26,462 nucleotides of DNA from positions 1 through 26,462 of IMG/VR virus record IMGVR_UViG_3300025133_000522. The stretch is one strand, 5' to 3'. The notes below the pieces were generated by a model, which saw only the letters and a list, made by a program, of their open reading frames with translations, was not told the origin of the DNA and made no database searches. This document shows positions 15,734 to 26,109 of this stretch, piece by piece (within the stretch, counting starts at the first letter, position 1; the number at the start of each line of letters is the position of its first letter). Source of the stretch: a virus. The position numbers were made by a program, and so were the translations under genes.

Positions 15734-16260
15734 GGGAGAGTAAAAAAGCACCCTCAATACAAGCCCATGAAGGACGCTCAGAGAGGATGCCCGAAGATAA
15801 CTCCGAATGTTTTTTTGCAATTTATAAAATTTTTGTGAGATGTGAAAGGGGTGGGGGTTATATCATATATGTACGCATACGTTCCATAATCCGAAACCGA
15901 AATCCCCGATGGGGGTGGTCGAAACCAATTCCAATGCACGCATTTCAAATGTCGATTCTACTTTCCAATGCACGCATACTATATTGTGGCTATTGTATCC
16001 ATCATTATCGGAATGGGGGACATAAGTTGCACCGATACCTTAAACCTATATAAAGCCCTGTAATGAATCGGCATATTGCTCCCTGGTAACACACCTAATA
16101 TCGGAAGAACTGCCCTTAAACGTAGTGAGAACAAGGGAGAGAGGGCATAACACCGCCTATCTACACACCAATCACTATCATTAGTGTTTACCTTAGAAAA
16201 AAGTTTACCCTCTGAATCCCTTGCTATCAGTACAATCGTTAAAATAAAGTGTAAAAAAAC
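15734..16260. other. Non-coding stretch with direct and inverted repeats
   Basis: No convincing gene. It is less AT-rich than its surroundings. It holds a 15-base direct repeat (15929-15943 and 15963-15977) with a third ACGCATAC core at 15873, and several inverted repeats: CCCC-GAT-GGGG (15904-15914), TATCGG/CCGATA (16006-16011/16032-16037), CTCCCT/AGGGAG (16079-16084/16134-16139) and CACTA-TCAT-TAGTG (16173-16186). It could be a replication origin, an attachment region, or a structured RNA or leader. It lies at the late/early boundary, which favours an origin or control region. Confidence 0.45.
15929..15977. repeat. Pair of 15-base direct repeats (iteron-like)
   Basis: TTCCAATGCACGCAT occurs exactly at 15929-15943 and 15963-15977, with start points 34 bases apart. 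A related core (ACGCATAC) is at 15873-15880 and again at the end of the second copy. Spaced direct repeats in non-coding DNA are typical of replication-initiator or regulator binding sites. Confidence 0.7.
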
Positions 16261-16292
16261 TTGACACGTATTATTTTTTTAGCTTATCTTTG
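16261..16292 (+). promoter_or_regulatory. Strong consensus promoter of the early region
   Basis: TTG (16261-16263), 21 bases, then TATCTTTG (16285-16292). This is the closest plus-strand match to the Bacteroidetes consensus in the window. Transcription would begin near 16298-16300. No gene follows for about 720 bases; a highly self-complementary stretch does, so the first product is expected to be RNA. Confidence 0.7.
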
Positions 16293-16297
16293 TTGCA

Positions 16298-16970
16298 GAC
16301 AAATGGGAGATATGTCTCTAACTACCTCCACGTTCTTTAACATACTGATTCAGATATAGCGTTCAGCGTAGGAGTAAGCAACGTGCCAAGGCATTGCAGT
16401 AAGGCTTACAACCATCCTTAGAATAGCATCTGACTAACAAGTTCCCACGAGAGATAGCATCAAAGGGATGTTAAGTTAGCACATCAGTTACACTTTAGCT
16501 TGATTGAGGATGATAAGCCTTAGTAATGACGAGTGAAGTTGCATTGTCAACAGAAGCGAGTTAAAGCAAAAATTCAATCAGCGTTTGCAAGTATCGAACA
16601 ACTTGACGGAAACCATCGCCGACAACCAGATGGGCTTGGATAGACCAATAGGCTATCATCAAGTTAGGTAAAGCACCATAGGGGAATTAAAACTTCCGTA
16701 CCGACTAATATGGGAATTCTCATCCGAGGGGATATGAATGTAAATTGTAAGCAATGCAATACAAGGAGCATGATTATGTAAGCACGATGAGAGATACGCA
16801 TTTGTAATGTTGTTGCGTATATGAATGACAACATACATTTTTGATTCGATGGGATGTTAAGTAAGGGTTACTCGCAGTAACTTAATATGGTGGTGCATGA
16901 GCCATCCTTACTTAGCCCCTTTAAAGCTACCAAAGGCAGTTACAAGTCTGCATAAAAGCTGAGTAGAGGA
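16298..16970 (+). ncRNA. Large structured non-coding RNA (candidate, about 670 nt)
   Basis: There is no convincing reading frame, yet the sequence is full of ordered complementary segments. Helices seen by eye: 16329-16334/16380-16385 (CACGTT/AACGTG); 16400-16408/16514-16522 (9 perfect pairs) continued by 16413-16421/16504-16512; 16430-16438 with 16475-16479 and 16484-16487; 16443-16446/16465-16468; 16588-16592/16601-16605; 16613-16617/16629-16633; 16635-16643/16653-16663; 16794-16800/16814-16820 with a pseudoknot to 16828-16834; 16858-16866/16906-16914 enclosing 16867-16881. It follows a strong promoter and precedes the first early gene. Size, phage context and a nearby tRNA-like element recall ornate phage RNAs such as GOLLD and ROOL, but I cannot assign a family. 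Confidence 0.72.
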
Positions 16971-17015
16971 AACCATTAACCATTAATACCTTAAGATCAC
17001 TAAACCTTAGAAACT

Positions 17016-17333
17016 ATGACAACTATTACCTTAAATTGGGAAACAGAAAATGGTCAGTACAAGCAAGACTTTAATGGTCTTAATACTGCCATAAAAGAAA
17101 TGAATAAGATGGCTGAAAGCATAGGCAAAATAGAAAGTTTATCTTTAGTCCCTTACAAAGTATCTGTTGTGATAACCGATAGAAATGACAATTGGGACTT
17201 AGTAATAGGTTCTAATGAGGAAGTTTATTACATAGCTAAAGAGGGCAGTAAATGTTCATCAGGTTACTACGGAACAGTAGGTCACCTTAGAAATAATATC
17301 CGATTAGGATACGAGAAAACAAAATTAAACTAA
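17016..17333 (+). CDS. First early gene, unknown function
   Basis: I do not recognise this 105-residue protein. It is soluble and mixed alpha/beta: a helix around residues 21-36 (LNTAIKEMNKMAESIG), then strands (VSVVITD, WDLVIGSNEEVYYIA) and a Gly/Ser-rich loop (CSSGYYGTV). It is the first gene after the structured RNA, and its start has the leader CCTTAGAAACTATG found throughout this block. Probably an early host-takeover or accessory protein, by position only. Confidence 0.6.
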   Translation: MTTITLNWETENGQYKQDFNGLNTAIKEMNKMAESIGKIESLSLVPYKVSVVITDRNDNWDLVIGSNEEVYYIAKEGSKCSSGYYGTVGHLRNNIRLGYEKTKLN

Positions 17334-20663: not shown

Positions 20664-20915
20664 ATGAAGAACACAACCTTAGTACTAACGGATAGCTTAA
20701 CAATGTCAGAATGTAGAGATGGCTATTGGCTATATGATTACACAAGAGGAATGAACCTCTCTGTGAAGGCAAAAACACAAGAAGATGCCTTTGTAGAAGC
20801 ACTCACATACTACCAAAGAAGAACTAAAAAGGTAGAAGATGAATTAAAAAAGTTAAGCCAATCAGTGAGTGTCTTTATCAATTCTGTTTCAGATGAAGAT
20901 GAGGGCGATTATTAA
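20664..20915 (+). CDS. Early protein of unknown function
   Basis: An 83-residue protein: TLVLTDSLTMSECRDGYWLYDYTRG then MNLSVKAKTQEDAFVEALTYYQRRTKKVEDEL. The pattern of a strand followed by a helix starting TQEDAFVEAL resembles small alpha/beta domains in which a strand carries an Asp/Gly turn. The acidic tail (DEDEGDY) is unusual. Leader ACTTAGAAATTATG. No known family. Confidence 0.56.
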   Translation: MKNTTLVLTDSLTMSECRDGYWLYDYTRGMNLSVKAKTQEDAFVEALTYYQRRTKKVEDELKKLSQSVSVFINSVSDEDEGDY

Positions 20916-20949
20916 ACTGTAATAAAACAAAACTAAAAACTTAGAAATT

Positions 20950-25533: not shown

Positions 25534-26109
25534 ATGGAGAAATCAGAAACTATAGGCAACCTAACCCTTGCCTTATCCAAAGTACAGGCTCAATTAAAAC
25601 CTGCAAAAGAAAACTCAAAGAATCCTTTCTTTAAATCTAACTATGCCGATCTGGGTGCGGTCTGGGATTCTGTTAGAGAATTGTTGGCTGAGAACGAGTT
25701 AGCAATAGTTCAAATGCCTACAGATGTAGGTGGGTTAACTACAATCTTATCACATTCAAGTGGAGAATACTTAGCCTCAACGTGCTACATTCCCTCAAAG
25801 GAGGATGCTCATGGTGTAGGTTCAGCAATAAGCTATGGTCGTAGATATGCTTTAGCTGCCTTTATTGGGGTGGTTACTGGGGATGACGATGGGAATAGTG
25901 CGGTAAAAGGATCAACGCCTAAGGCTTCTATATCTAAATCATCATCATCTAAACCTAAATTGACATCTGACCAATATAAAGCAATGGCTAAAGCTATTGA
26001 AGAAGGTAAGGGCGATGTAGTTAGACAAAAGATGAATGGGTACACCTTAACTAAAACTCAATCAGATAATCTTGGTAAGCTACTTAAATTATCTAATACC
26101 TTAGTGTAA
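25534..26109 (+). CDS. erf: ERF-family single-strand DNA annealing protein
   Basis: A 191-residue recombinase of the ERF superfamily, which anneals complementary single strands in phage recombination. The core spans about residues 30-121: NPFFKSNYADLGAVWDSVR (30-48), STCYIP, and GSAISYGRRYALAAFIGVVTGDDDGN (96-121, read in parts), the hallmark of ERF proteins. A Ser/Lys-rich linker (122-145) leads to a small C-terminal helical domain (146-191). It pairs with the exonuclease gene that overlaps it by one base. Confidence 0.88.
   Translation: MEKSETIGNLTLALSKVQAQLKPAKENSKNPFFKSNYADLGAVWDSVRELLAENELAIVQMPTDVGGLTTILSHSSGEYLASTCYIPSKEDAHGVGSAISYGRRYALAAFIGVVTGDDDGNSAVKGSTPKASISKSSSSKPKLTSDQYKAMAKAIEEGKGDVVRQKMNGYTLTKTQSDNLGKLLKLSNTLV

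Follow-up and report, generated by a model that had tools for sequence, protein, structure and literature searches.

A putative stand-alone early RNA of marine phages with a boxA-like element in front and a predicted twister ribozyme at its end

Results and discussion

The region at positions 16298-16970 of a 26.5-kb IMG/VR virus record (the window, by which we mean the whole stretch of DNA that was analysed) is likely to specify a stand-alone early noncoding RNA of about 620 nt, which would be made with rRNA-style antitermination, released by its own twister ribozyme and active in trans. Comparison across homologues shows a conserved structure, a twister, common ends, a modular core and independence from the downstream gene. 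The features of the region are listed in Table 1.

Table 1. Features of the putative RNA and its surroundings (positions in the window)
Feature	Position	Strand	Basis or remarks
Bacteroidota-type promoter, TTGACA-N18-TATCTTTG	16261-16292	+	Sole such site in the window; aligns in homologues
5′ hairpin position, ahead of boxA	16298-16330	+	Folds per homologue
boxA-like element, CGTTCTTTAACATACTGATTCAG	16331-16353	+	Sequence and position
5′ domain, exchangeable module	16350-16479	+	Helices 16350-16355/16428-16433 and 16434-16438/16475-16479; inner hairpin 16374-16379/16404-16409
Core A	16490-16850	+	About 100 predicted pairs, of which 31 show double changes; best-conserved part 16574-16715
Pseudoknot	16795-16837	+	Stem 16795-16800/16814-16819; loop 16803-16813 pairs with 16828-16837
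Terminal stem with three-way junction (16858-16914)	16843-16922	+	3′ end of the released RNA
Type-P1 twister ribozyme	16918-16969	+	RF03160, 44.0 bits, E 3.7e-8
First early-operon ORF	17016-17333	+	93 nt past the predicted cleavage site; outside the RNA

The phage and its early operon

The terminase, portal and capsid proteins encoded in the window match PHROG families. Because the nearest named terminases are those of MW202828 (46% identity), Maribacter phage Panino and the Flavobacterium elemo phages (37%), and Cellulophaga phages (33%), we infer from sequence that the host of this phage belongs to the Bacteroidota. The RNA is carried by a group of marine phages, all uncultured, whose hosts are probably Bacteroidota. 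Structural genes, mainly on the minus strand, fill the left part of the window, and small plus-strand genes run from 17016, among them one for an Erf-type annealing protein at 25534. No tRNA was found in the window, and no further Rfam element in its early operon.

Upstream of the RNA, positions 15807-15965 constitute conserved noncoding DNA without obvious RNA structure, with the motif TTGCAA...AAAAGGGTGGGGGTTATATATA followed by CCGAAACC...GGGGGTGGTC. The same segment is present in related records (L083, L205, L166, L217, L224, L242, L187, L241, L221, L220 and L222) and is kept even in those that do not have the RNA; it may serve in replication or as a divergent promoter.

Conserved structure of the RNA body

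The preliminary description of this DNA had proposed a large structured RNA, and the compensatory changes found in homologues, far above those in shuffled controls, bear this out. In an alignment of 11 distinct core-A sequences, the consensus folding energy was −239.7 compared to −165.9 ± 6.7 in column-shuffled alignments (z = −11), and none of 60 shuffles was as low. Pairs with double changes numbered 53, compared to 14.4 ± 4.0 in the shuffled alignments, the highest of which reached 25. When each part was taken alone, the z values were −4.8 for the 5′ domain, −8.5 for the core and, more weakly, −2.7 for the 3′ domain. The best-conserved segment of the core has 37 pairs, for which 98.8% of cells pair and 17 cells are doubly changed; neither level was reached in any of 500 shuffles, and structures slid along the alignment pair at 25-42%. 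These column-shuffle and helix-level tests were used in place of a per-pair tree-based covariation test; with a tree-based null over all column pairs, which is underpowered at n = 11, no pair had E < 0.05 and the best (E = 0.2) was a predicted pair.

The support for the structure is comparative, not thermodynamic. The density of complementarity had been considered unlike that of the flanking genes, an argument that fails because single-sequence folding of the region does not stand out from that of the remaining window: its 220-nt segments have z values of 0.9, −0.1, −1.5 and 0.5, the mean for the whole window being −0.7 (sd 1.3), and the whole region has z = −1.8, a stability that is not unusual. 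Among the helices initially offered as evidence, the three-way junction and the pseudoknot were upheld by the homologues, whereas the 9-bp long-range helix was not. The three-way-junction-like unit is the apical part of the terminal stem, which covaries strongly across homologues; in some relatives short hairpins take the place of this apical part. The arms of the stem differ in sequence between homologues, yet the pairing holds in every one. The pseudoknot has covarying G-C/A-U positions, which in relatives read UUGUAUGUU/AACAUACAA or UGUGUGUU/AACACACA. The 9-bp helix (16400-16408/16514-16522) is present in the letters of the window, but all nine pairs are found only there and in L205, the other nine aligned relatives having 2-7 of them, and it was dropped as not conserved (full in 2 of 11). 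Two elements provide a better comparative fit, namely the inner hairpin of the 5′ domain, which competes with it, and the first helix listed for that domain in Table 1, which has 6 of 6 pairs in all 11 sequences.

A twister ribozyme at the 3′ end

The twister match extends over the full RF03160 model (positions 1-68 of 68) and is significant, with a score below the 67.2-bit gathering score. A gathering-level Rfam scan leaves the element unannotated because its score is under the curated cut-off. The Rfam gathering score is a conservative curation threshold and not a structural feature. None of the 50 related records contains a copy above it, the best scoring 44.9 bits. Matches occur in 16 of these 50 records, one in each and at the end of the RNA, while none was found in 14 control genomes or in a second set of 50 relatives that included cultured phages. 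The region as first delimited ended at 16970, one base past the end of the twister, which had gone unrecognised.

The UA cleavage step and the elements UAA, CAAG, AUAAA and GAG are invariant in the 16 copies. Over P1, P2, P4, T1 and T2, 99.6% of cells pair, with 13 double-change cells, a result seen in none of 500 shuffles. Both pseudoknots are formed in 16 of 16 aligned copies; T1 has a compensatory change from UAC/GUA to UGC/GCA in three copies, and T2 keeps AC/GU in all. Cleavage is predicted to occur between U16922 and A16923, because this dinucleotide corresponds to the known twister cleavage step. The bases C16918-C16919 can pair either in P1 of the twister or in the terminal stem, and the terminal stem may re-form after the cut by means of these bases.

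Promoter, hairpin and boxA-like element

The promoter had been regarded as the best in the window, and TTGACA-N18-TATCTT is indeed the highest-scoring match in a scan of the region; the Bacteroidota-type pattern TTGACA-N-TANNTTTG has a single occurrence in the entire window, at this site. Transcription would start near 16298-16300. In most relatives the sequence that follows folds into a clean hairpin of 6-9 bp, with arms that have changed and still match; the window's own copy is weaker. The boxA-like element behind it is almost invariant among core-A homologues despite the swapped sequence downstream. The exact motif GTTCTTTRACA has one site in the window, without mismatch, and a GYTCTTTRANA-like motif is located shortly past the promoter and behind the hairpin (GTTCTTTAACA at 16332).

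As a yardstick for boxA we used eight Bacteroidota 16S rRNA leaders, most of which contain GTTCTTTGAAT or a close variant between the promoter and 16S; the phage element agrees with these in sequence and in its place after the promoter. The phage has CGTTCTTTNACATACTGA directly after its promoter, and most relatives have a covarying hairpin in between. In MW202828, CGTTCTTTGACATATGG lies behind the early promoter. In E. coli, a boxA of this kind loads Nus factors, which help rRNA to fold and shield untranslated transcripts from Rho (PMC4807359, PMC6614801, PMC10250234). The phage boxA-like element may accordingly be read as a candidate antitermination signal of the rRNA type that would load Nus factors.

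Homologues and module exchange

Viral contigs were scanned four times with protein guidance and four times by pattern, and the region was recovered, in part or as a whole, in at least 17 related phage contigs. Core A is found in the window, L205, L166, L217, L191, L231/L249, L224, L248, L251, L252, L246 and the split L260/L263, and core B in L083, L242, L173, L187 and L183, with fragments in L261 and L262. L260 and L263 are one contig with about 10 bases unread between them, and their joined version was left out of all statistics. Copies with core A and core B have in common their 5′ start, terminal stem and final 52 bases; as aligned, the cores are at least two unrelated versions between common ends. 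Twister-ended copies measure between about 360 and 602 nt from boxA to the predicted cleavage site. The core-A covariance model detected no core in 48 further related records, and thus no distant core homologues are known; a search of the 50,697 phage records in INPHARED found no similar DNA. Pattern matches in L255, L257, L258 and L259 (viral) and in L264-L266 (bacterial genomes) were set aside as chance, by alignment or by organism.

The 5′ domain is exchanged between relatives and missing in L187. In L183 this domain is flanked by two boxA-like copies, and L187 has one such copy and no domain, as if it had been inserted or lost between repeats.

Two relatives, L220 and L221, still have the upstream region, with the promoter at the same position. 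The promoter of L221 runs straight into the first ORF with no RNA between them, and the alignment of L220 stops at the same point, the absence of the RNA in that record being by alignment only. Since these two phages do without it, the RNA appears to be dispensable. The first downstream ORF differs in nearly every relative, and the RNA and twister persist 70-93 nt before it. Because this ORF changes while the RNA and twister stay, the RNA would be a product in its own right and not a gene-specific leader.

These comparisons bear on an alternative in which the whole stretch is a cis-acting antitermination or regulatory element of the early operon, of the kind seen in the HK022 put RNA or in nut sites. 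The twister would then only free the mRNA of its leader, for translation or stability. In favour of this, the RNA comes first in the early operon and follows a boxA-like signal, and boxA is retained at that place in distant relatives even where the RNA was not found. However, antitermination requires boxA and a small hairpin at most, not a stretch of some 500 nt whose core is exchangeable, the first gene is a different one in almost every relative, and L220 and L221 operate the same operon without the RNA; we consider a cis-acting leader unlikely. Still less probable is a decoy or counter-defence RNA that would sequester or inhibit an RNA-binding defence factor or an RNA-decay factor of the host early in infection. 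The early position, dispensability and rapid module exchange would be typical of counter-defence loci, but this would be one possible job of a stand-alone RNA and not a different anatomy, and the core shows no repeat-like or tRNA-like mimicry.

The region had also been described as having no plausible frame, in agreement with the homologues, which share no conserved reading frame across it. The plus strand contains no ORF of note at 16298-17016, and two minus-strand ORFs of 56-59 aa, seen in the window, are attributed to chance. A protein-coding or purely DNA element (an origin or packaging site) taken for RNA, for which the adjacent conserved DNA at 15807-15965 might speak, is very improbable in view of the lack of a common frame, the strand-specific covariation, and the strand-specific ribozyme at one end and promoter at the other.

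Proposed mechanism

These results lead us to propose the following scenario for the stand-alone RNA. Host RNA polymerase would start at the promoter near 16298, and the hairpin and boxA-like signal in the first nucleotides would recruit the rRNA-type antitermination factors of the host and thereby enable the polymerase to traverse a long untranslated structured stretch. The RNA would fold during transcription, from the 5′ domain to the core and then the terminal stem. With the polymerase beyond 16969, the twister would fold and cut. The released RNA would then end in a 2′,3′-cyclic phosphate just behind the terminal stem, and the early mRNA would begin with a 5′-OH some 90 nt ahead of its first start codon. 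C16918 and C16919, now freed, could pair again in the terminal stem, so that reversal of the cut would be difficult, and the freed RNA would presumably act in trans. Dispensability and module exchange fit an accessory role, for example in counter-defence.

Parallels in related leaders

The Flavobacterium elemo phages are cultured distant relatives with a parallel arrangement. In elemoA, a hammerhead III ribozyme (36.3 bits, E 7.8e-6) lies between the early promoter and the first early ORF, and the stretch ahead of it contains the boxA-like TGTTCTTTCTTATACATTATG after the upstream promoter. A hammerhead III was found just before the first early ORF in all six elemo species searched, once in each. 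In the elemoA record MT497075 (L268, 14290-14720, minus strand), a structured leader is preceded by two Bacteroidota-type promoters, which lie about 225 bp from each other; the PHANOTATE genes placed in this leader (29372-30225, plus strand) are probably spurious.

Hammerheads were also observed elsewhere. The 57.9-kb contig G025, from a related phage, has two of type I between small early ORFs (G025:C1:20553-20602 and 20872-20921, or L304 and L305; 31.0 and 27.6 bits), and CUGANGAG cores suggest a third; its early mRNA may be cut into single-gene pieces. A hammerhead III (32.2 bits, E 2.6e-7) is located between two early ORFs in L302 (1501-1558, minus strand; G048:C1:6172-6229); at another place, this contig has a short leader that resembles core B.

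L224 lacks the twister, and in its place, behind the terminal stem, are a tRNA-like acceptor (GGGAAU/AUUCCC) and the T-arm GTGGTTCGATTCCAC (L224:2027-2178). Neither ARAGORN nor Rfam calls a true tRNA or tmRNA there. The element may be an RNase P site, a single case that we treat as a lead only.

It is an evenly balanced question whether the RNA represents a new class of large ornate phage RNA made in the manner of rRNA, with boxA-led antitermination in front and a programmed cut behind. In such a class the cutter would be swapped (a twister, a hammerhead in the elemo phages, perhaps a tRNA-like RNase P site in L224) and the core would be a cassette exchanged among Bacteroidota phages.

Comparison with known systems

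The twister was the only significant match in the region among 4227 Rfam models, which included group I and II introns and riboswitches, and the GOLLD and ROOL models gave no match at E ≤ 10 to positions 15780-17020. The region had been proposed to be either a new or diverged member of GOLLD or ROOL or an unrelated class. With no Rfam family covering the RNA body and GOLLD and ROOL unmatched, the reading as an unrelated class stands and membership in either family does not. These two are the nearest in general kind, and testing found no relationship. Like GOLLD, the RNA is large, structured, phage-encoded and of unknown function, and GOLLD is also conserved at the 3′ end and more variable at the 5′ end (PMC12286853); unlike it, the RNA has boxA in front and a predicted self-cleaving ribozyme at its end, shows no match in sequence or structure and lacks GOLLD's tRNA-island context. 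ROOL is similarly an ornate RNA of about 600 nt from phages or prophages, with unknown function (PMC12286853), but it too gives no match, and its structure, host group and processing signals differ. Large phage RNAs of this kind have no known function and offer few handles. The RNA described here offers an early-operon position, exact predicted ends, exchangeable modules and natural presence or absence between close relatives.

In the literature searched, which included few subscription journals, no account was found that combines boxA with a large, exchangeable structured RNA and an end made by a ribozyme; these parts have separate counterparts. The 52-nt unit belongs with the type-P1 twisters by its conserved nucleotides, P1, P2 and P4 and both pseudoknots, and differs in being short, without P3 and P5, under the curated score, and a putative 3′-end processor of a large noncoding RNA. 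If this is correct, it would provide a natural role for the twister ribozyme, whose biological uses remain largely unknown. Hammerheads are known between prophage genes, and phage transcripts are cut by ribozymes (PMC3088659), as the hammerheads of the elemo phages and G025 recall; those described earlier flank genes (PMC3088659), whereas the ribozyme here would part a large structured RNA from an operon. The leader of rRNA operons (boxB-boxA-boxC) and other boxA-led untranslated transcripts have the same succession of promoter, hairpin, boxA and long untranslated structured RNA (PMC10250234). In contrast to the rRNA leader, the present RNA is phage-encoded and its 3′ end would be made by a predicted ribozyme cut and not by RNase III, so if the proposal holds, these phages borrow the logic of the rRNA operon to produce a noncoding RNA.
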